64,000 nt of DNA, taken from Bacteroidales bacterium. Its GTDB lineage: Bacteria; Bacteroidota; Bacteroidia; Bacteroidales; Paludibacteraceae. Shown piece by piece: positions 48,262 through 61,895 of this stretch. The notes under the pieces are model-generated. The model was not told the origin of the DNA. It saw only the letters and a program-made list of their open reading frames with translations, and made no database searches. Location of the stretch: NCBI GenBank assembly GCA_015061115.1, contig SUXE01000007.1, forward strand, positions 119,132 through 183,131, in the 5' to 3' direction. Each line of letters opens with the position of its first letter. Position 1 is the stretch's first letter. The position numbers and the translations under genes were made by a program.

Positions 48262-48301
48262 CTAATGAAATATTTACGATGTGACTAAAACTGTTTATGC
48301 T

Positions 48302-49018
48302 ATGAAAAAAATCTTTCTTTTGACTATGATGCTATTAGCTTCATTGTCAATGTTTTCGCGAACCACTCCTGAAACAATTTATCTTAAATCAGGAAGTGTG
48401 ATTAATGGAGAAATCATAGAGTATGTTCCGAACCAATCGATTAAGATTATTACATCAGACTATAGTGTATTTGTATGTAAACTAGAAGACGTAGACAAGG
48501 TTGTTCGAAACATAACTGCAAATTTAGAAAATCAACAATCGACAGCTTTTGTCACACCACAAAAAGGATATAGATTCTTTATTGCCGCAGATCAAATGAC
48601 AGGGAATTTGACAGGCTTTAAGTTTACAACAACTCATGGTGCTCAATTAAACAATAAAATATTTTTGGGCGGAGGTCTTGGTTTTTGTGTGGCCGAAGAT
48701 GAGAAAAGTTGGGATACTTATTTGTCGATTCCTTTTTATGCCGATTTTCGTTATGATATTTTAGATAAAAAAATCACTCCATTTATAGGGGCTAGGGCTG
48801 GTGTCGCCTTTGCTATAGAAGGCATAACTGGTTTTTATGGAAATTTATCCTTTGGTGGACGATTCAAAAGATTTTCAATTTCAATGGGCGTGGAGACATT
48901 GAAAGGATCGGATCTATACTATAAGTTCGATAATGATGACTATTATGGCACTTATGTTGAAATACCTGAACCATATCGAGCATTCTCTTTTGTGACAAGA
49001 TTTGCGTTTGAGTTCTAA
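48302..49018 (+). CDS. Small predicted outer-membrane protein, paralogue 1
   Basis: 238 residues from the ATG at 48302. Signal peptide, then a conserved 60-residue module TIYLKSGSVINGEIIEYVPNQSIKIITSDYSVFVCKLEDVDKVVRN, found widely in Bacteroidota. A glycine/aromatic-rich barrel-like domain follows (GLGFCVAEDE, YADFRYDILDKKITPFIGARAG, FYGNLSFGGR), ending in FVTRFAFEF with a terminal Phe as in outer-membrane barrels. Three paralogues stand in a row. Function unknown. Confidence 0.75.
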   Translation: MKKIFLLTMMLLASLSMFSRTTPETIYLKSGSVINGEIIEYVPNQSIKIITSDYSVFVCKLEDVDKVVRNITANLENQQSTAFVTPQKGYRFFIAADQMTGNLTGFKFTTTHGAQLNNKIFLGGGLGFCVAEDEKSWDTYLSIPFYADFRYDILDKKITPFIGARAGVAFAIEGITGFYGNLSFGGRFKRFSISMGVETLKGSDLYYKFDNDDYYGTYVEIPEPYRAFSFVTRFAFEF

Positions 49019-49034
49019 ACAAAATTATTACACA

Positions 49035-49748
49035 ATGAAAAAAATACTGCTTTGTGCTTTGATGTTTTTTTTGCAGATTTCTGCATTTTCTCAAGTCAAT
49101 AGAGAAACTGTTTACTTGAAGAATGGAAATGTGCTCAAGGGTGATGTCGTTGGTTTTGTGCCAAAACAATCGGTTACGATAGCTGCGGTTGATGGTGATA
49201 CTTTTGTTTGCAATTTGACAGAAATAGAAAAGATCACGAGAGATCACGGTTATATTGCTGGAAATAATGAGTCGTCATCTGGTTACTCTTATCATGAAAA
49301 GGGTTACAAATTCGTATTTTCTTTTGATATCATGTTAGGAGAAATGTCGGGTATGAAATGGACTACAATTCATGGATCACAATTAAATGAAAGAATTTAT
49401 TTAGGATTGGGTTTAGGTTTATGTATAGCAAATGATTACGACATTCATTTGTCTGTGCCTGTGTTTGCTGATTTCCGTTTTGATTTTCTTAAAAAAAGAA
49501 TAACTCCATATATAGAAACGAGGGCAGGTTACGACTTTGCTTTTGAAGGATGTCCTGGCTTTTATGGAGATTTCGCCTTTGGCTGTCGAATCAAACGTTT
49601 TTCTGTTTCAACAGGAATTGAAACTTTACGTAGAGAAAATAATGATGGCATATATTACTATAATGGATATAATGATTATGGATATGAGGAAAGCCATCTT
49701 GAATTTCAATCATTTAATTTCGTGATTAGATTCTCGTTGGAGTTCTAA
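49035..49748 (+). CDS. Small predicted outer-membrane protein, paralogue 2
   Basis: 237 residues from the ATG at 49035, only 16 bp after the previous gene. Same plan as paralogue 1: signal peptide, TVYLKNGNVLKGDVVGFVPKQSVTI module, barrel with VFADFRFDFLKKRITPYIETRAG and FYGDFAFGCRIKRFSVSTGIE, terminal FVIRFSLEF. Its last loop is rich in Tyr, Asn and Gly and differs most from the siblings, as expected for an exposed loop. Confidence 0.75.
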   Translation: MKKILLCALMFFLQISAFSQVNRETVYLKNGNVLKGDVVGFVPKQSVTIAAVDGDTFVCNLTEIEKITRDHGYIAGNNESSSGYSYHEKGYKFVFSFDIMLGEMSGMKWTTIHGSQLNERIYLGLGLGLCIANDYDIHLSVPVFADFRFDFLKKRITPYIETRAGYDFAFEGCPGFYGDFAFGCRIKRFSVSTGIETLRRENNDGIYYYNGYNDYGYEESHLEFQSFNFVIRFSLEF

Positions 49749-49873
49749 GTCCATTGGATCTTATTCTGATAAAATTAATAGTTGATTTTAGTCGTTTGAT
49801 TATTAGATGAAATGCTTTCGCTTATGATTTTGCGATAAATATTTATGTTGGGTTAAAAACTTTTAGATTTAAA

Positions 49874-50620
49874 ATGAAGAAAATATTGATGTTGGCTGTT
49901 ATGTTGATTGCCTCAATATCAGCATTCTCACAGAGTTTTCGTGAGTCGGTTTACCTGAAAAATGGAAGTGTTATAAAAGGAGATATTGTTGAACTCCTAC
50001 CTGATTCGTTGGTTAAGATTGAGGTTGCAGACGGAAGTGTTTATGCTTTTGATTACAAAGAAATCGAGAGAATCATTAGAGATAGTAAAGATGCGGTAGC
50101 ATCAAAAAATGTTGATACACATGATTCTATTAGTGATTTCAGTCTAAAAAAAGGTTCTAGATTATTTGCTTCTGCTGAATTGATGTTTGGTGAAATGCCT
50201 GGTGCCAGATTTTCAGCAACTTATGGAGCCCAACTGAATAATAAGTTTTTCTTGGGTGGAGGAACGGGATTTTGTATCGCTGCAGATTGGTATAGTGATC
50301 ATTATTCGATTCCTGTGTTTGCTGATTTACGTGTGGATTTTTTAGAAAAGAAAATCTCGCCATTCATGGAATTAAGAGCTGGAGTTGACATTGCTATTAA
50401 AGGTGCTAGTGGTTTTTATGGAGATCTTTCATTTGGGTGTAGATTAAAAAGATTCTCAGTTTCTGCAGGAGTGGAATCATTGAAAGGACTGGATTATGAT
50501 TTTCCGTATTATAATGCTGGAAGAAGAGAACGTGTTTATTATGGCAATTTCGACGAGTCTGCTGAGCCATATGGCTATCGTGCATTCAACTTTGTGACGA
50601 GATTTTCGTTTGAATTCTAA
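49874..50620 (+). CDS. Small predicted outer-membrane protein, paralogue 3
   Basis: 248 residues. Same plan: signal peptide MKKILMLAVMLIASISAFSQ, SVYLKNGSVIKGDIVELLPDSLVKI module, barrel with VFADLRVDFLEKKISPFMELRAG and FYGDLSFGCRLKRFSVSAGVESLKG, terminal FVTRFSFEF. It is separated from paralogue 2 by 125 bp, so it may have its own promoter, although no TAnnTTTG was found there. Confidence 0.75.
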   Translation: MKKILMLAVMLIASISAFSQSFRESVYLKNGSVIKGDIVELLPDSLVKIEVADGSVYAFDYKEIERIIRDSKDAVASKNVDTHDSISDFSLKKGSRLFASAELMFGEMPGARFSATYGAQLNNKFFLGGGTGFCIAADWYSDHYSIPVFADLRVDFLEKKISPFMELRAGVDIAIKGASGFYGDLSFGCRLKRFSVSAGVESLKGLDYDFPYYNAGRRERVYYGNFDESAEPYGYRAFNFVTRFSFEF

Positions 50621-51498: not shown

Positions 51499-51610
51499 AT
51501 TCGTGATGGTCGTTAAATATAATTTGATGTTTATCGCTGAAAGTTCATAACTATCATTCATATTTTTGTTTCAAATCATAGTTTTCTTTGCAAAAAATCT
51601 TATGATTTTG

Positions 51611-51640
51611 TTTGAATAGTCTTATTTTTTTGTAATTTTG
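51611..51640 (+). promoter_or_regulatory. Promoter of the leucine operon
   Basis: TAATTTTG (51633-51640) with TTTG at 51611-51614 (18-bp spacer) or 51607-51610 (22 bp). It lies 32 bp before the leader-peptide ATG. Confidence 0.65.
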
Positions 51641-51672
51641 CAACATCTAAATAGACAAAGAAACTATAGACG

Positions 51673-51729
51673 ATGAAAAATATTGGAACTACATACATTC
51701 AACTCATTGGTTTGCTGCTCATAGGGTGA
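51673..51729 (+). CDS. Leucine/isoleucine-rich leader peptide of the leu operon
   Basis: An 18-codon frame encoding MKNIGTTYIQLIGLLLIG, with four Leu (three consecutive) and four Ile codons near its end, then TGA. It lies between the promoter and a terminator-like hairpin, the arrangement of ribosome-mediated attenuation: when charged leucyl-tRNA is scarce the ribosome stalls and the terminator cannot form. The peptide itself is not expected to have another function. Confidence 0.8.
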   Translation: MKNIGTTYIQLIGLLLIG

Positions 51730-51733
51730 TGCA

Positions 51734-51830
51734 GTGAGATTGTGTGTGGTCGAGATTATTTTTATATAAGACAACGATTGAGCTTTCTCACTTCAATAAA
51801 GATGTGAAAAGGCTCTTTTTATTTTTTATT
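51734..51830 (+). terminator. Transcription attenuator of the leu operon
   Basis: Terminator stem 51780-51791 (GAGCTTTCTCAC) with 51804-51815 (GTGAAAAGGCTC), one mismatch and one G-U pair, followed by a T-rich run. The 3' side of the first arm (TCTCAC, 51786-51791) can instead pair with GTGAGA (51734-51739) just after the leader peptide, giving a short competing helix. No gene lies between 51499 and 51857 apart from the leader peptide. Confidence 0.75.
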
Positions 51831-51857
51831 GTGAAACAACGCTAAAAATTTATTTTT

Positions 51858-53354
51858 ATGGCAGATAGATTATACGTTTTTGATACCACTTTGCGTGATG
51901 GAGAGCAAGTGCCTGGATGTCAGTTGAATACAATTGAGAAGATACAGGTTGCTAAGGCTCTTGAGACGCTTGGCGTGGATGTGATTGAGGCAGGATTCCC
52001 AATCTCAAGTCCAGGAGACTTTAATTCAGTAGTAGAGATATCAAAGGCTGTTACATGGCCTACTATCTGTGCCCTGACTCGTAGTGTTCAGAAGGATATT
52101 GACGTAGCTGCGGAAGCCCTCCAGTATGCCAAGAGAAAGCGTATTCACACTGGTATAGGAACAAGTGAAAGCCATATCAAATATAAATTCAATTCCACTC
52201 CTGAGGAGATTCTTGAACGTGCAGTAGCTGCTGTTAAGTATGCCCGCAGATTTGTGGATGATGTTGAATTCTATTGTGAAGACGCTGGCCGTACAGACAA
52301 TGAGTATTTGGCTCGTGTTGTAGAGGCTGTCATCAAGGCTGGTGCTACTGTAGTAAATATTCCTGATACAACTGGTTATTGCTTGCCTGTTGAATATGGT
52401 GAGAAGATCAAGTATCTTTTCGATCACGTCGACGGAATTGATAAGGCAATCATCTCAAGCCACTGTCATAACGACTTAGGTATGGCGACTGCCAACACTA
52501 TCTCTGGTGTTATGAACGGTGTCCGTCAGGTTGAGGTTACAATCAACGGAATCGGTGAGCGTGCCGGCAACACTTCTCTTGAAGAGGTTGCTATGATCTT
52601 AAAGTGTCACAAACACCTTGGCATCGATACAAACATCAACACTCAGAAAATCGCGTCTACTTCAAGATTAGTCTCTAACTTGATGAATATGCCAGTTCAG
52701 CCTAATAAGGCTATCGTTGGTAAGAATGCGTTCGCTCACTCATCAGGTATCCATCAGGATGGTGTGTTGAAGAATCTTCAGACTTACGAGATCATGAATC
52801 CTAAGGATGTAGGTATCGACGACAATGCAATCGTATTGACTGCAAGAAGTGGTCGTGCGGCTGTACGTCACAGATTAAGTGTTCTTGGTGTTGAGGTGGA
52901 TGGCGATAAGCTTAACACTATCTACGAGGCATTCCTTCGTTTGGCTGACCAGAAGAAGGAGATCTGCGACGACGATTTGTTGATGCTTGCTGGACAGGAG
53001 CGTACAAGTGCTCATCATATTAAACTTGAGTATTTGCAGACTACATCAGGAGTCGGTGTCACTCCAGTCGCAATTATCGGTTTGAATATCGCTGGTGAGA
53101 AGTTTGAGGCTACTGCTTCAGGAAACGGTCCAGTCGACGCTGCTGTCAAGGCTCTAAAGAAGATCATCGACAGAAAGATGGAGCTTAAAGAGCTTTTGAT
53201 CCAGGCCATCACACGTGGATCTGACGATGCATGTAAGGTACATGTGCAGGTTGAGACAGAGGGCGTGATCTATTATGGTTTCGCGGCTAATACAGATATC
53301 GTGTCAGCTACAATTGATGCGTATATTGATGCTATAAACAAATTCAAGAACTAA
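51858..53354 (+). CDS. leuA: 2-isopropylmalate synthase
   Basis: First committed step of leucine synthesis: acetyl-CoA plus 2-oxoisovalerate gives 2-isopropylmalate. The TIM-barrel part begins with [17 protein letters not shown] and contains the metal-binding HCHNDLGMA (around 200) and [15 protein letters not shown]; the C-terminal 130 residues (about 370-498) form the leucine-feedback regulatory domain. 498 residues, normal. First structural gene after the attenuator. Regulated at transcription by the leader and, by family knowledge, allosterically by leucine. Confidence 0.96.
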
Positions 53355-53380: not shown

Positions 53381-55501
53381 ATGAATACACTATTTGACAA
53401 GATTTGGGATTCTCATGTTGTGCAGAATGTGCAGGATGGCCCAACTCAATTGTACATTGATCGTCTTTACTGCCACGAGGTAACTTCACCTCAGGCATTT
53501 GATACATTGCGTGACAAGGGAATCAAGGCTTTCCGTCCAGACCATGTTGTAGCAATGCCAGACCATAACACACCTTCTGATCAGCAGAAGGAGATCAGCG
53601 ATCCAATCGGTTGCAAGCAGGTTGATACTCTTTCATCTAACTGTGCTGCATTCGGTATCAAGCATTTCGCTATGGGTACTAAGGACAATGGTATCATCCA
53701 TGTTGTTGGTCCAGAGAAAGGTCTTTCATTGCCAGGTATGACAATCGTATGTGGTGACTCTCATACATCTACTCACGGTGCTGTCGGTGCAATCGCAATG
53801 GGTATCGGTACTTCTGAGGTTGCTCAGGTACTAGCTTCACAGTGTATTCTACAGAGCAAGCCAAAGACAATGCGTATCAACATTGAGGGCGAGCTTCAGC
53901 CAGGTGTCACTGCAAAGGACGTCGCTCTATACATCATGGCCCAGGTTACAACATCTGGCGCTACTGGTTATGCTGTTGAGTACGCAGGTTCAGCTATCCG
54001 CAATATGAGCATGGAGGGTCGTTTGACTCTATCTAACCTTTCTATTGAGATGGGTTCACGTGCTGGTCTTATCGCTCCAGACGAGATCACTTTCGCTTAC
54101 CTTAAGGATCGTGAGTATGCTCCTAAGGGTGCTGAGTGGGATGCGGCTGTTGCTAAGTGGCGTCAGTTGAAGAGCGACGACAATGCTGTGTTCGACAAAG
54201 AGTTGACATTCAAGGCTGAGGATATCAAGCCTCGTATCACTTTCGGTACAAACCCAGGTGCTGGTATCGCAATCGACGGTACTATTCCAACATACGACGG
54301 AATGAGTGAGGCTGATGCTGCTCAGTTGAAGGCTCAGCTTGACTATATGCAGTTCAAGCCAGGACAGAAACTAGAGGGAATTCCTGTTGACTACTGTTTC
54401 CTTGGAGCTTGTACAAACGGTCGTATCGAAGACTTCCGTGCTTTCGCTTCAATAGTTAAGGGAAAGAAGAAGGCTCCTAATGTAGTTGCTTGGTTGGTTC
54501 CTGGTTCATGGTTGGTTCGCCAGCAGATTATTGAGGAGGGAATCGACAAGATTCTAAAGGATGCTGGATTCGAACTTCGTTTGCCATCTTGTTCATCATG
54601 TTTGGCTATGAACCCAGACAAGGTGCCAGCAGGTAAACTTTCAATCTCAACAAGTAACCGTAACTTCGTAGGTCGTCAGGGTCCTGGCGCACGTACAATC
54701 TTGGCTTCTCCACTTACAGTGGCTGCCAGCGCAATTACTGGTGTTGTTACTGACCCACGTACACTTCAGTCTTCACCTATCAAGGCTGCTGAGGTGACTA
54801 AGGTAGTGGATTCTAAACCACAGGATTGTCCTAACTGCGCATTCGGTGCTACAGCAGGTGCACAGGCTGCTGATGGAGCTAAGTCTGTACACAAAGCATT
54901 CAACGTAGTTAAGTCTACTTGCTTGCCTATCAATATCGATAACAACAATACAGATAATATCATTCCAGCTCGTTACTTGGCGTTCACTACACGTGATCCT
55001 AAGTTCTATGGTGATGCTTTCATGCATGATATCCGCTTCGATGCAAACAATAAGCCAGTTGCTGATTTCGTGATGAATATCGCTCCATTCAACGAGACTC
55101 CTGCTGAGGGCAAGCGTGAAATTATCATCGGTGGTAAGAACTGGGGTTCTGGTTCAAGCCGTGAGCACGCTGCATGGGCAATCGCTGGTTATGGAATACG
55201 TGTTGTTATCAGCTCATCTTTCGCTGATATCCACCGTAACAACCTTCTTAACTGCTTCGTATTGCCAGTTATTGTAAGTGAGGATTTCCGTCAGGAGCTT
55301 CTTGCTTCAATCGACAAGGATGCTAACACTATTGTTACTGTTGATGTTCCAAATCAGACTGTGACTAATGAGGCTACAGGACACTCTGAGAAATTCGATA
55401 TCAATGGCTACAAGAAGTATTGCTTGTTGAACGGTTATGATGATATTGATTATTTGTTGTCTAACAAGGATAAAATCGAGGCTTACGAGTCTAAAAAATA
55501 A
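53381..55501 (+). CDS. leuCD: 3-isopropylmalate dehydratase, large and small subunits fused
   Basis: One 706-residue frame joins what are normally two proteins. Residues about 1-465 are Leu[21 protein letters not shown] and the three [4Fe-4S] ligands Cys344 (CTNGR), Cys404 and Cys407 (CSSC), close to the E. coli positions. Residues about 466-503 are an Ala/Lys/Pro linker ([17 protein letters not shown], then [13 protein letters not shown]). Residues about 505-706 are Leu[23 protein letters not shown] and [22 protein letters not shown]. Catalyses 2- to 3-isopropylmalate isomerisation. No internal stop or frameshift is seen, and codon use is uniform across the junction. Confidence 0.9.
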
Positions 55502-55522: not shown

Positions 55523-57034
55523 ATGATCGAAATAATGGATACAACATTGAGAGATGGAGAACAGACATCTGGTGTCTCTTTCTCTCAACAGGAAAAACTC
55601 GGTATTGCCAAATTCTTGCTCTCTGAATTAGGTGTTGACAGAATAGAAATCGCTTCAGCAAGAGTGTCGGAAGGAGAGCTTCAGACTGTGAAGAAGATCA
55701 CAGAATGGGCTGACAAGGCTGGCTTTCTTCCGAAAATTGAAGTTTTGGGCTTCGTCGACGGAGAGACATCCCTCAATTGGATTGAAAGTGTCGGTGGAAA
55801 GGTGATCAACCTTCTTACTAAAGGTTCATTGCGCCATGTCACTGAACAGTTGAGAAAGACTCCTCAGGCTCATATCGATGATATCAAACGAGCTATTGAT
55901 TTGGCTCATAAGAAGAATATCTCCGTCAACCTATATTTGGAGGATTGGAGCAACGGAATGAAAAATTCCCCTTCTTATGTGTTTGATATGGTCGACGCAT
56001 TGTGTGGTGAGGGAGTGAACAGATTTATGCTTCCTGACACTTTGGGTATACTTAATCCGCTTTTGACTGCTGATTTCTGCACTCAGATGGTGAAAAGATA
56101 TCCTAATCTGAAGTTCGATTTCCATGCCCATAATGATTACGATCTTGCTGTATCCAATGTGTTTGCTGCTGTGAATTCTGGAATCAGTGGCATCCACACT
56201 ACAATAAATGGACTTGGAGAACGTGCGGGAAATGCTCCACTTACGAGTGTTTTGGCCGTACTTCACGACCAGCTTGGCATCAAGACAAAGATCAACGAGC
56301 AGAAGATGTATGATGGCTCAAAACTTGTGGAGACCTATTCGGGAGTACGTATTCCAGCCAACAAGCCGATTATTGGAGACAATGTCTTCACGCAGGTAGC
56401 TGGTGTGCATGCCGACGGAGATCAGAAAAACAATCTGTATTGCAACGACTTACGTCCGGAAAGATTCGGAAGAAAGCGTGAATATGCACTTGGTAAGACA
56501 TCTGGAAAGGCTAATATCCGCAAGAATCTTGAGACATTGGGTATAGAGTTGGATGAAAAGTCGATGCTGAAGGTGACTCAGAGAATTATCGAGCTTGGAG
56601 ACAAGAAACAGCTTGTGACTCCTGAGGATCTTCCATTCATCATCAAGGATGTGCTTGGACATGGAGAAGTGAAGCAGACAATCAAGGTTGTCAATTATGC
56701 TTTGAACTTGACTCATAATCTTCGTCCGGTCGCAACTATATTGATCGAGATCGATGGTAAGAGATACCAACAGACAGAAGCTGGAGACGGTCAGTATGAT
56801 GCATTCTCTAAAGCACTTTGGAAAGTGTATAAAGAGTTGGGCAAGGAGACACCGGAATTGCTAGACTATTCGGTTGTCATCCCTCCTGGTGGAAACACTG
56901 ACGCATTGGTTCACAACACCATTACTTGGAAGTTCAAGAATAAAGTGTTCAAGACTCATGGTTTGGATGCCGACCAGACAGAGGCGGCGATCAAAGCGAC
57001 AGTCAAGATGCTCAACTTGATCGAAACAATGTAA
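55523..57034 (+). CDS. Isopropylmalate/citramalate synthase-family enzyme
   Basis: 503-residue paralogue of Leu[18 protein letters not shown], metal site HAHNDYDLAVSN, GLGERAGNAPL, and a C-terminal LeuA-type regulatory domain (about 370-503). The order leuA-leuC/D-this gene-leuB is common in Bacteroidales. The family includes (R)-citramalate synthase, which starts isoleucine synthesis from pyruvate and acetyl-CoA and uses the same LeuCD and LeuB for its next steps; this makes citramalate synthase the most likely role, and homocitrate synthase less likely. Specificity is not provable from sequence. Confidence 0.82.
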   Translation: MIEIMDTTLRDGEQTSGVSFSQQEKLGIAKFLLSELGVDRIEIASARVSEGELQTVKKITEWADKAGFLPKIEVLGFVDGETSLNWIESVGGKVINLLTKGSLRHVTEQLRKTPQAHIDDIKRAIDLAHKKNISVNLYLEDWSNGMKNSPSYVFDMVDALCGEGVNRFMLPDTLGILNPLLTADFCTQMVKRYPNLKFDFHAHNDYDLAVSNVFAAVNSGISGIHTTINGLGERAGNAPLTSVLAVLHDQLGIKTKINEQKMYDGSKLVETYSGVRIPANKPIIGDNVFTQVAGVHADGDQKNNLYCNDLRPERFGRKREYALGKTSGKANIRKNLETLGIELDEKSMLKVTQRIIELGDKKQLVTPEDLPFIIKDVLGHGEVKQTIKVVNYALNLTHNLRPVATILIEIDGKRYQQTEAGDGQYDAFSKALWKVYKELGKETPELLDYSVVIPPGGNTDALVHNTITWKFKNKVFKTHGLDADQTEAAIKATVKMLNLIETM

Positions 57035-57225: not shown

Positions 57226-58287
57226 ATGGAATTAAAGATAGCGGTTCTTGCTGGAGACGGCATTGGACCAGAGATTTCAGCAGTAGGTGTTGATGTGATG
57301 TCTGCTGTATGTGAGAAGTTCGGACACAAAGTAAGCTATGAGTATGCTATTTGTGGAGCTCATGCGATCGACGAAGTTGGTGATCCATTCCCAGAGGATA
57401 CATTCAAGAAGTGTATGGCTGCAGACGCAGTTCTATTCTCTGCAGTAGGTGATCCTAAGTTCGACAATAACCCATCAGCAAAGGTACGTCCAGAGCAGGG
57501 TCTTCTTGCAATGAGAAAGAAACTTGGTTTGTTCGCAAACATCCGTCCAGTACAGACATTCGACTGCCTTGTACACAAGTCACCATTGAAGGATGAACTT
57601 GTAAAGGGAGCTGATTTCATCTGTATCCGTGAGTTGACTGGTGGTATGTACTTCGGTGAGAAGTATCAGGACGACGAGAAGGCTTACGATACAAACGCAT
57701 ATACACGTCCAGAGATCGAGAGAATCTTGAAGGTGGCTTACGACTATGCACGCAAGCGTAACAAGCACGTGACAGTTGTAGATAAGGCTAACGTTCTTGC
57801 TTCTTCACGTCTATGGAGAAAGGTCGCTCAGGAGATGGCTCCTAACTATCCAGATGTTACAACTGACTTCATGTACGTTGATAACGCTGCAATGAGAATG
57901 ATTCAGGAGCCTAAGTTCTTCGACGTTATGGTAACTGAGAACACATTCGGTGATATCCTTACAGATGAGGGTTCTTGTATCACAGGTTCAATGGGTCTTC
58001 TTCCATCAGCATCTACAGGTGAGCACACTCCAGTGTTCGAGCCAATCCACGGCTCATGGCCACAGGCAAAGGGCTTGAATATCGCAAACCCACTTGCACA
58101 GGTTCTTTCTGTAGCAATGTTGTTTGAGTATTTCGACCTTAAGAAGGAAGGCGAGTTGATCCGTAAGGCAGTAGACGCATCTTTGGATCAGAATGTACGT
58201 ACTCCAGAAATCCAGGTTGCCGGCGGTGCTAAGTATGGCACTAAGGAAGTTGGAGCTTGGTTGGTAGATTGGATCAAGAAGGCTTAA
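57226..58287 (+). CDS. leuB: 3-isopropylmalate dehydrogenase
   Basis: NAD-dependent oxidative decarboxylation of 3-isopropylmalate to 2-oxoisocaproate. The ATG at 57226 starts [17 protein letters not shown], the canonical N-terminus; an in-frame TTG at 57202 is rejected. Landmarks: [41 protein letters not shown], and the metal/substrate site [19 protein letters not shown]. 353 residues. Last gene of the operon, separated from the previous gene by the tandem repeat and followed by a terminator. Confidence 0.97.
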
Positions 58288-58308: not shown

Positions 58309-58337
58309 AGAGACGCACATTGTGCGTCTCTTTTTTT
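58309..58337 (+). terminator. Rho-independent terminator of the leu operon
   Basis: AGAGACGCAC (58309-58318) with GTGCGTCTCT (58322-58331), then a T-run. Confidence 0.9.
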
Positions 58338-58469: not shown

Positions 58470-61400
58470 ATGGATAAGAAGTACTTTTTAATATATATAT
58501 CTGCATTGTCGCTCTTTATGCTGACGATGCTTGGCTGTTCCAACAAGAAGAATACAGCCATATCTCGTGGTTACCAGGCGATGACCACGCGTTATAATGT
58601 CTACTATAATGGAAGGGAATCATTGGAAAAAGGCAAGGAGAATATCGAAAATGCCTATAAACCGGATTATTCTCAGATTTTGAAGATGTATCCTGTGGGT
58701 GATAAAACCACAAAAGGGGCTGCTTTCTCACAGTGTAACAGGGCTTTGGATAAGTGTCAGACTGCCATCAAACTCCATTCCATGCGAAAAAAACCAGTGA
58801 AGAAACCAGGCAAGATGAAGGACCCTGATTATGCGGCTTTCTATGCGCAGGAGGAATTTAATTCTAAAATGGACGACGTGTGGATGCTGATGGGTGAGAC
58901 TAAATACTATAATGAGGATTTCCTAGGTGCTTCTGCCACTTTTACATACGTTGAAAAACATTTCTCTGTTCATAAAGATTTGGTTGTGAAAGCATCTATC
59001 TGGAGAGCAAGAGCTCTTATGGAAATGGATTGGCTGTATGAAGCAGACGAGATATTATCTAATATCAGTGATGATGACTTAAACTTTGAAAATCAAGAGT
59101 TTTATGCTGCCGCAATGGCTAATCTTCGTCTGAAACAGAATGAGAAAGCTGAAGCCTTGAAGTATTTGAAACAAGCAATTCCGTCGGCTGAAAACAGAAA
59201 AGAAAAGACGCGATTCTATTTTATTATGGCTCAGCTTAATCAAGAACTAGGCCATAACGACGTCGCATACGCATATTATGATTCTGTGATACGCAAATGT
59301 CCAGACTATGAGATGCAATTCAATGCAAGAATACGTCAGTCTGAGGTCGTTCCTGGTGATTTGGCAAATACGGATCGTATTGTGGCAAAACTAAAAAAAG
59401 CGGCTAAATCATCTAAAAACAAAGATTATCTTGATCAGATTTATTATGCAATAGGTAATGTTTATCTTACTAAAGGAGATACTGCCAATGCGATCAAGAA
59501 TTATATTGTCTCAGCGGAGAGCAGTACAAGAAACGGTATTGAAAAGGCTGTCACTTTGATGAAACTAGGTCAGCTTTATTACCAAAAAAGAAATTATATA
59601 GATGCAGAGCCTTGTTATGCGGAGGCGTCATCTATTCTTTCAAATGACCATCCTGATTATAATGAGATTTTTGCCAAAGCGAAGAATCTTACTGAGTTGA
59701 AGCAAAATTATGAGGTCGTCCATCTTCAGGATTCATTGCTCGCTTTGTCGGAGGCTACTGATGCGGAACGTATTGCAGCGGCACAACGTGAGGTTGACAA
59801 AGTCAAGGCTCGTTTGCAGAAAGAACAAGAGAAGAGAGAGCAGGACTCCCTTAACGCTCGTATCGCTGGAATGGAGATTGAAACAATCGTATCAAAGAAT
59901 GTGAATTCGGTCAGAGGCTCTAATTGGTATTTCTACAATGCTCAGGCTGTGTCAAAGGGTAAAATCAGCTTTAAAAACAAGTGGGGGGATCGTCGTCTTG
60001 AGGATAACTGGAACAGAAAGAATAAGCAGATGATGATGATTTCAGATGAGGTCGCTATTAATGATACTGCAAATAATAGTCAAAACGTGCCTGAGTTCGA
60101 GGATAGAGGTTCTGATTCTGAACGTTTCGCAAATGGACAGGATATGCCTGAACTTACACTTGGATATTATCTGAATCAGATTCCTAAGACTCCAGAGGCA
60201 AAGGCTCTTGCCCTTAACCAGGTTCGCACCTCATTATTTAATGAGGCGGTTGTCTTCGACGAGAAAATCAGAGACTACGATATGGCGATCCAGACTTATG
60301 ATGAGTGGATGCGTCGTTTTGGTGGTGAAAAAGCAGACAAGGATGCTGATGTCTTGTTCAACTCTTACCGTGTGGCTGAGAAGATGAACGACAATGCTTT
60401 GGCTGTGAAATATAAGGATGAACTTGTGTCTAAGTATCCTAACAGCAAGTATTCGCAGGTGTTGAGCGATCCTGACTACGCTAATAAGTTGGTAAGAATG
60501 GCAAATGTGGAGGATTCGATCTATAGAGCTACATATAACGCTTATCATGCATCCGAATACCAGACTGTTTTGGCTAATGCGGATTATATGCAAAAGAACT
60601 ATAAGATGTCGTCGTTGATGCCTAAGTTCATGTTGCTGAAATCTTTGTCGTTTGGTAAACTGGGTCAGCACGATTCTTTGAAGGCTTCTTTGGGAACACT
60701 TGTAGCTGAGTATCCAAAGAGTGATGTTGCGACGATGGCAAAAGATATCTTGGCATTGATAGAGCAGGGTAATGTGTCGTCGAAAGGAACTACGGCATCA
60801 CTCGCGTCGCAGAGAGAGCGGATATTGCTTGAGGAGAATATCCAGACTGGTGTGGTTGATACTGTAGGATTCAGATATAGTGATAAGAGTGCTTATCATT
60901 TCTATATCATATCTCAGGCAGACAAGGTTGACCAGAACAGATTGTTGTTTGAGGTCGCTACATACAACTTCTCGAAATTCTTGGTTAAGGATTACGATTT
61001 GAAAGTCAGACCTGGATTGGTTTCTGTATCTGGATTGGACAATCTTGACGAGGCTCTTTGGTATCAGAAAGGTGTGAAGGAGAGCGACGGAATTATGAAT
61101 CTTCTTAAGGGTACTGACTATACTTTGTTGGTGATCTCAGAAGAGAACAGTCGTTTGATCGGTCGTGGATACACACTTGAACAATATAAAGTGTTCTATG
61201 AGAAGAATATTCTCAACCGCAAGCAGGATAACAAGAAGAAGATCAATATCGAACTTATTGGTAATGATGCTCCTGCTGCTCCTGTTGAAATCAAGGAGGG
61301 TGATGACTTGAATAACATGTCTCAGTCGAAAATCGCTCCATCAACAAAATCAGAAGCTAAAACCGAGGCAAAGCAGGAGTCGAAGAGTGTAAACAGTGAC

Positions 61401-61895
61401 GAAAAAACAACAGACGAGAAAAAAACGGAAGCAGTCAAGCCTGCGGAGACAAAGTCGGAAGCCAATAAAGTTGAAGAAAAGAAAGTCGACGCTGCTCCAA
61501 AGAAAGAGTTGAAGAAATACAAGAATCTTTATACGCTCGACCGTACGGCAGAGCATTATTTCGCTCTTCTTATCACAAGAGGTGCCGTGGATTCCGAAAA
61601 GTTGATTCAACTTTTGGCTAATGCTAATGATGAGTGGCCCGGAGGAGAATTGAAAGTGGAGAAAACAGATGGCAAAAATTTCACTTTGATTGTCACGGTA
61701 GGTTTGTTTGAAAACTCCTCTGTAGCGATGGATTATTTGAAAGGTATTGTGAAATCAGATGCCTTGAAACAAAGATTACAGAATGTCTCTTATAATAGTG
61801 TTATTATTTCTAAAGATAATCTTGATGCTTTGCGTCAGTCGGGAAATCTTAATGTTTATATGGAGTTGTTCAAGAAAGGTTATCTTGGCCGTTAA
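58470..61895 (+). CDS. porW: PorW/SprE-like TPR lipoprotein of the type IX secretion system
   Basis: 1141 residues. Lipoprotein signal ends at MLGC (Cys23); then NTAISRGYQAMTTRYNVYYNGRESLEKG, the family hallmark. Multiple TPR units span about 90-460 and 560-790. A coiled-coil Glu/Lys-rich stretch lies near 440-470, a Lys/Glu/Ser/Thr-rich low-complexity segment at 950-1015, and a conserved C-terminal domain follows. In T9SS organisms PorW/SprE is an essential outer-membrane-associated lipoprotein linking the motor to the translocon. It is immediately followed by porX. Confidence 0.85.
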   Translation: MDKKYFLIYISALSLFMLTMLGCSNKKNTAISRGYQAMTTRYNVYYNGRESLEKGKENIENAYKPDYSQILKMYPVGDKTTKGAAFSQCNRALDKCQTAIKLHSMRKKPVKKPGKMKDPDYAAFYAQEEFNSKMDDVWMLMGETKYYNEDFLGASATFTYVEKHFSVHKDLVVKASIWRARALMEMDWLYEADEILSNISDDDLNFENQEFYAAAMANLRLKQNEKAEALKYLKQAIPSAENRKEKTRFYFIMAQLNQELGHNDVAYAYYDSVIRKCPDYEMQFNARIRQSEVVPGDLANTDRIVAKLKKAAKSSKNKDYLDQIYYAIGNVYLTKGDTANAIKNYIVSAESSTRNGIEKAVTLMKLGQLYYQKRNYIDAEPCYAEASSILSNDHPDYNEIFAKAKNLTELKQNYEVVHLQDSLLALSEATDAERIAAAQREVDKVKARLQKEQEKREQDSLNARIAGMEIETIVSKNVNSVRGSNWYFYNAQAVSKGKISFKNKWGDRRLEDNWNRKNKQMMMISDEVAINDTANNSQNVPEFEDRGSDSERFANGQDMPELTLGYYLNQIPKTPEAKALALNQVRTSLFNEAVVFDEKIRDYDMAIQTYDEWMRRFGGEKADKDADVLFNSYRVAEKMNDNALAVKYKDELVSKYPNSKYSQVLSDPDYANKLVRMANVEDSIYRATYNAYHASEYQTVLANADYMQKNYKMSSLMPKFMLLKSLSFGKLGQHDSLKASLGTLVAEYPKSDVATMAKDILALIEQGNVSSKGTTASLASQRERILLEENIQTGVVDTVGFRYSDKSAYHFYIISQADKVDQNRLLFEVATYNFSKFLVKDYDLKVRPGLVSVSGLDNLDEALWYQKGVKESDGIMNLLKGTDYTLLVISEENSRLIGRGYTLEQYKVFYEKNILNRKQDNKKKINIELIGNDAPAAPVEIKEGDDLNNMSQSKIAPSTKSEAKTEAKQESKSVNSDEKTTDEKKTEAVKPAETKSEANKVEEKKVDAAPKKELKKYKNLYTLDRTAEHYFALLITRGAVDSEKLIQLLANANDEWPGGELKVEKTDGKNFTLIVTVGLFENSSVAMDYLKGIVKSDALKQRLQNVSYNSVIISKDNLDALRQSGNLNVYMELFKKGYLGR

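Follow-up and report, generated by a model that had tools for sequence, protein, structure and literature searches.

The DNA between promoter and leuA in the window (the whole stretch of 64,000 nucleotides that was analysed, from a gut Bacteroidales bacterium) is very probably an attenuator by which a translating ribosome controls transcription of the leuA-leuCD-cimA-leuB operon. It is almost certain that the attenuator is real and functional, and its mechanism can be read with good confidence from strong comparative evidence. We also favour, with some reserve, a wider reading in which the attenuator takes both leucine and isoleucine as inputs and its control codons were re-tuned in evolution, Ile codons being kept while cimA stands in the leu operon and lost when cimA leaves it. 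The element would then be one of a wide set of leaders (Leu/Ile, His and Phe/Tyr here; in the class Thr/Ile, Ile/Val and perhaps Asn) and would show that translation and transcription are coupled closely enough in Bacteroidota for classical attenuation.

The gene order 3′ of the attenuator is leuA, leuCD, a cimA homologue and leuB, all on the plus strand. The 2-isopropylmalate synthase gene leuA (51858–53354; NCBIfam and Pfam) is followed by leuCD (53381–55501), which encodes a 706 aa fusion of the large and small subunits of 3-isopropylmalate dehydratase (TIGR00170 and TIGR00171 in one frame, NCBIfam), by a second synthase gene (55523–57034), and by leuB, the 3-isopropylmalate dehydrogenase gene (57226–58287; TIGR00169 above cut-off). 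The best model for the second synthase is the (R)-citramalate synthase CimA of the isoleucine route (NF042433), with an E-value of 1.4e-196, yet the match stays under that model's strict cut-off. These profile matches agree with the fused dehydratase and second synthase named in the preliminary description. An intrinsic terminator with a 10-pair stem and a T tail (58309–58331, plus strand) closes the operon. Among named relatives, a Paludibacteraceae MAG (L245) stands closest, with a LeuA identity of 95%. Just 5′ of the operon, at 48281–50620, lie three tandem paralogues of about 245 aa that look secreted, the last with a weak match to the LA_0442/LA_0875 N-terminal domain model. Directly 3′ of leuB, at 58470–61895, there is a PorW/SprE type IX secretion lipoprotein gene (NF052312), the product of which carries a C-terminal extension past the end of the model.

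Upstream of leuA, a promoter, an 18-codon peptide with LLL and four Ile codons, a competing helix and a terminator had been proposed from the sequence, and each of them was found where it had been placed. The putative promoter is of the Bacteroidota type, with a −33 element TTTG (51611–51614) and a −7 element TAATTTTG (51633–51640; consensus TAnnTTTG), both on the plus strand. The leader ORF (51673–51729, plus strand) would encode the 18-codon peptide MKNIGTTYIQLIGLLLIG before a TGA stop and reads ATG AAA AAT ATT GGA ACT ACA TAC ATT CAA CTC ATT GGT TTG CTG CTC ATA GGG TGA. It contains four Ile and four Leu codons, including LLL, and the control codons are mainly codons 11–17. A short frame rich in codons for the products of the operon is what a leader should be, and its translation is predicted; an Ile/Leu-rich ORF is also conserved at this place in relatives.

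The leuA gene was located in relatives and the upstream DNA was extracted, which gave 94 curated leaders from many Bacteroidales families and genera. Each of them has an Ile/Leu-rich ORF and a terminator, with a median distance of 34 nt from the stop codon to the terminator. In 86 of the 94, the motif TAnnTTTG was present within 80 nt 5′ of the leader start codon, compared with 6% of shuffles, and TTTG or TTGG stood at a distance matching the −33 element in 60. Among in-frame leader residues Ile makes up 20% and Leu 22%, percentages that are inflated by the choice of ORFs partly on their I+L+V content, so that Val, at 1.6%, serves as an internal control; this choice inflates neither the Val value nor the codon, covariation and model results. 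The other two frames are full of stops (182 and 109). Codon usage is also distinct from that of the adjacent leuA genes (60 loci), with CUA accounting for 29% of Leu codons in leaders versus 3% in leuA, and AUU for 84% of Ile codons versus 42%. The leader is not universal, and it is absent where leuA comes after ilvC or another gene. In three loci from several Bacteroidales families (L085, L117 and L118), leuA lies directly 3′ of an ilvC-like gene, whose product has a C-terminus resembling ketol-acid reductoisomerase, and no leader precedes leuA; control presumably sits at the head of the longer operon.

Which amino acids the leader peptide contains seems to depend on the enzymes encoded in the operon. 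When cimA was mapped in the same genomes, leaders with cimA next to leuA (n = 53) were found to contain 2 to 8 Ile codons, while those without cimA in the operon were mostly Leu-only. At most one Ile codon was present in 0 of the 53 leaders with linked cimA and in 9 of the 13 without it (Fisher p = 2e-8, a statistic that ignores kinship, the losses stemming from a few clades only); the other four leaders that lack cimA carry 2–4 Ile codons each. A first sample had given a weaker result (p = 0.005), and two families with cimA losses were therefore added. Both states occur within one family, where the cimA-linked peptide MTITMNSIILSLSIIGLTLSK corresponds to the related MNTTLLSLSLTSGLTLSK of an operon lacking cimA. 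Genomes that carry cimA at another site follow no uniform pattern, with 0 to 7 Ile codons in eight cases, several of them at contig ends, and no clear Ile leader was seen in the region upstream of such cimA genes. These comparisons support the earlier suggestion that Leu and Ile codons together would be apt where the operon includes a second synthase. It is rather improbable that the leader senses leucine alone, with Ile codons that are incidental, being hydrophobic codons such as AUU that fit the RNA structure. The densest run in the window, LLLI, is mainly Leu, and the strong AUU preference could reflect pairing needs of the RNA; however, Ile is as frequent as Leu across the 94 leaders, leaders that lack cimA in the operon mostly drop Ile and keep Leu, and the family holding both states differs in the same way.

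The folding of the window leader is consistent with the preferred reading of the element as an attenuator. In the minimum-energy fold, segment 1 (51688–51716), within the leader ORF, forms the 5′ side of a protector helix, and segment 2 (51725–51750), which includes AGTGAGA, forms its 3′ side; segment 2 is also seen in the alignment. Segments 3 and 4 make up the predicted intrinsic terminator hairpin (51780–51815), with a stem of 12 positions, one mismatch and about −15 kcal/mol, followed by a U-tract (51816–51829). The putative antiterminator pairs AGTGAGA (51733–51739) with TCTCACT (51786–51792), all of these features being on the plus strand, and the 5′ arm of the terminator takes in the TCTCAC of the latter strand. 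The competing helix GTGAGA/TCTCAC of the preliminary description is present and exact, and it is one base pair longer, at 7 bp. The fold of the whole 166-nt leader consists of the 1:2 protector helix and the terminator (z = −4.5; none of 200 shuffles reached its stability), and when segment 1 is removed the best fold switches to pairing of segments 2 and 3. These modelled folds are the 1:2 / 2:3 / 3:4 scheme of classical attenuation. The 1:2 helix, clear in the window, was also seen in many relatives, and codon choice favoured it over synonymous recoding in 22 of the 94 leaders at p ≤ 0.05, with about 5 expected, which modestly supports this pairing across leaders. A generic terminator scan of the window did not pick up the attenuator, probably owing to the loop limit of the scan.

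The 2:3 helix of the window alone is statistically unexceptional, as 43 of 200 shuffles pair equally well. What carries the case is the conservation seen in relatives, together with their compensatory changes. In an alignment of 71 leaders (A1), compensatory changes were observed at 13 of 13 terminator pairs (76 cells versus 19.6 ± 3.4 in shuffles) and at 8 of 12 antiterminator pairs (47 cells versus 19.9 ± 4.3). The antiterminator is 76% paired in the alignment, compared with at most 52% for slid registers; an example of its changes is GTGAG/CTCAC to GTAAG/CTTAC, and a second class of leaders pairs GAGAATGG with CCATTCTC. RNAalifold on the full alignment recovered just part of the terminator. 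As had been asked of related species at the outset, they keep the peptide frame with its Leu/Ile codons and, despite sequence change, the base pairing of the terminator as well as that of the antiterminator. Covariation of two mutually exclusive helices is expected of an attenuator, but not of a plain terminator. A strong U-tract hairpin could simply end transcription, or damp it to a constant degree, beside an ORF present by chance, and shuffled AT-rich DNA yields terminator-like sites too, but such a reading is scarcely credible and is largely refuted by the conservation of frame and codons and by the covarying second helix; moreover, nearly all leaders have the hairpin 3′ of the promoter and 5′ of leuA, a position that rules out a terminator of the upstream gene.

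The switch was seen when the nascent transcript was folded 3′ of a simulated ribosome, at a stage when segment 4 had yet to be transcribed. The mean number of antiterminator pairs was 12.1 with the ribosome on the Ile/Leu run, 3.3 with the ribosome at the stop codon, 6.0 with no ribosome and 9.0 with segment 2 shuffled, and the same folding of the window gave 9.8 on the control codons, 6.1 at the stop, 2.9 for naked RNA and 8.6 for the shuffle. Equilibrium folding with the complete terminator failed to show the switch in most leaders, and in the window the terminator wins even with a stalled ribosome; 18 of 92 leaders lose at least half of the terminator with a stalled ribosome, and none shows the reverse. 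The equilibrium effect is weak, and the switch would therefore have to be kinetic; known attenuators likewise decide kinetically. The nascent-RNA folds predict that a ribosome stalled on the control codons would expose an antiterminator incompatible with the terminator, and a putative intrinsic terminator with a covarying stem lies between the leader ORF and leuA.

The anatomy, its conservation and the covariation of both mutually exclusive structures are seen directly; from them we infer ribosome stalling, coupling, termination and a response to both amino acids, as follows. RNA polymerase would start near 51645–51650, and a ribosome would translate the 18-codon leader. With charged Leu-tRNA, and probably also Ile-tRNA, plentiful, the ribosome would get to the stop codon at 51727 and cover segment 2 (AGTGAGA), so that segments 3 and 4 could pair as the terminator and transcription would end near 51820. 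With Leu or Ile in short supply, the ribosome would stall on the Ile/Leu codons and open the 1:2 helix; the freed segment 2 would pair with segment 3 as the antiterminator, and the polymerase would continue into leuA. If there is no translation, the 1:2 helix should form and leave the terminator as the default.

As a held-out test, the covariance model R1 was applied to a further 79 leuA loci, all with named records and spanning 1.03 Mb in total. A plus-strand match was found in 57 of the 79, a few of which apparently are training-set genomes under other names (e.g., L286 and L288), and the match ends 9–118 nt 5′ of leuA in each. The other R1 matches are the reverse strand of the same hairpins, and none in the 1.03 Mb lay away from leuA leaders. 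Among these loci the leader was present in 54 of 70 that have cimA but in 2 of 8 that lack it, a comparison that ignores phylogeny.

Leaders of the same layout precede other operons in the same genome. A His-rich leader (HKHHHEH) stands before hisG, and the YFAYYYFFFFYF leader stands before pheA; the hisG leader (MRFRRLHKHHHEH...) has the pairing CAAGTGAG/CTTACTTG, and the pheA leader MQQRYFAYYYFFFFYFRR has GCGGGATT/AATCCCGC. At L200 (G000:C13, upstream of 93747), the His-rich leader MRFRRLHKHHHEHCIEND... and a terminator lie directly before hisG, and at L156 (G000:C22:218122-218237), the Phe/Tyr-rich leader MQQRYFAYYYFFFFYFRR and a terminator lie before pheA (prephenate dehydratase). A strong terminator was also seen before trpB at L158 (G000:C11:78166-78293), where the short ORF MILRFIVGFFKARI has no Trp codon. 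The low-scoring model matches L155, L157, L159 and L161 in this genome are not leader-like in appearance, and no evident leader was found at its ilvD and thrA. Among class relatives, the same model revealed Thr/Ile leaders before thrA-type genes and Ile/Val leaders before ilvE, ilvB and ilvD, in counts that leave out most weak matches (E about 1e-3). Thr/Ile leaders such as MTINNTTIITIITTGINFGGR stand before aspartokinase (thrA-type) genes at L177, L178, L182 and L184 and resemble E. coli thrL. At L183 (G587:C1:346728), the Asn-rich short ORF MMNFYFNNNFNYATPPGGD and a terminator precede asnA, with a tandem second model match at 346603; the whole is possibly an asparagine attenuator. Adjacent leader-like matches (L176, with leader MKNSIQNSIIISIIIIRIT, and G445:C23:497070-497180) precede a gene for a small protein, perhaps ilvN, for which no NCBIfam model reached E ≤ 1e-30.

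These sister leaders also bear on what the leu peptide is for. Short hydrophobic peptides look like small membrane proteins, yet a stable functional microprotein, with attenuation secondary or absent, is most unlikely here, as the peptide shows little conservation apart from its Ile/Leu residues, the rare codon CUA is over-represented, and the same layout recurs with His-, Phe/Tyr- and Thr/Ile-rich peptides before cognate genes. A riboswitch, T-box or protein-binding RNA sensing an amino acid or tRNA without translation would explain a structured 5′ region with a terminator, but it deserves very little credence, for what recurs most regularly is a reading frame with many cognate codons, and Rfam gave no family at the gathering threshold and just far-below-threshold chance matches when relaxed.

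Two results deserve most attention: the association of the leader's Ile codons with cimA, and how widely leaders of this kind occur in Bacteroidota. The association is a direct, falsifiable statement on how a regulatory peptide is tuned, and the leader set offers a natural test of how leader codons follow gene content. Classical attenuation requires a ribosome moving close behind RNA polymerase, and a Bacteroidales-wide attenuator with its hisG and pheA sisters predicts that transcription and translation are coupled in this way in a major phylum of the gut, one whose promoters and translation starts are unusual. Leaders of this type, like the short RNAs that end at their terminators, are easily missed in annotation.

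Leader-peptide attenuation is a textbook mechanism, and a 2010 survey by Lopatovskaya et al., cited in PMC4833913 and PMC10272879, may include Bacteroidetes. An Rfam scan of the whole window at the gathering threshold revealed no leader family, Leu_leader or T-box match, and a relaxed scan (E ≤ 5) over 51600–51870 gave no Leu_leader or T-box match. Rfam's Leu_leader is the leuL attenuator of enterobacterial leu operons. Like leuL, the present element has a short ORF with a Leu run that includes CUA-type codons, competing helices and a terminator before leuA; in contrast to leuL, it has Leu plus Ile codons and a distinct motif, AGTGAG...TGTGTG / CCTTTCTCACT, that Bacteroidales conserve, and it is probably a convergent or very diverged element. 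No description of the leu/cimA leader was found in the searchable literature. According to a genome-scale paper of 2010, leader-peptide attenuation had until then been shown only in Proteobacteria and Actinobacteria, to which that paper added the Firmicutes (PMC2965389). The 5′ UTRs of B. thetaiotaomicron contain leader-like sORFs (PMC7366714). Novelty in Bacteroidota was overstated in the preliminary description, because strong clues for leader-peptide attenuation before amino-acid biosynthesis operons have already been published for Flavobacterium psychrophilum (PMC9723704). That bacterium belongs to the same phylum and has leader peptides before amino-acid operons; the passages that give these clues do not describe the leu/cimA case, the helices or the Bacteroidales spread (PMC9723704). 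The Corynebacterium ilvBNC uORF and the leuA leaders of Actinobacteria (PMC10272879, PMC1262725) are likewise BCAA-rich leader ORFs, which control ilv or leuA outside Proteobacteria, but they belong to another phylum and differ in sequence. E. coli ilvL and thrL (annotated in NC_000913) are alike in having leader codons for several amino acids and operons with several products, and the thrL logic reappears in the Thr/Ile leaders before thrA of class relatives; compared with ilvL and thrL, the leader here has Leu and Ile codons with almost no Val, which fits a leu operon that also carries cimA. The leu/cimA leader is best regarded as a well-supported new case of known ribosome-mediated attenuation.
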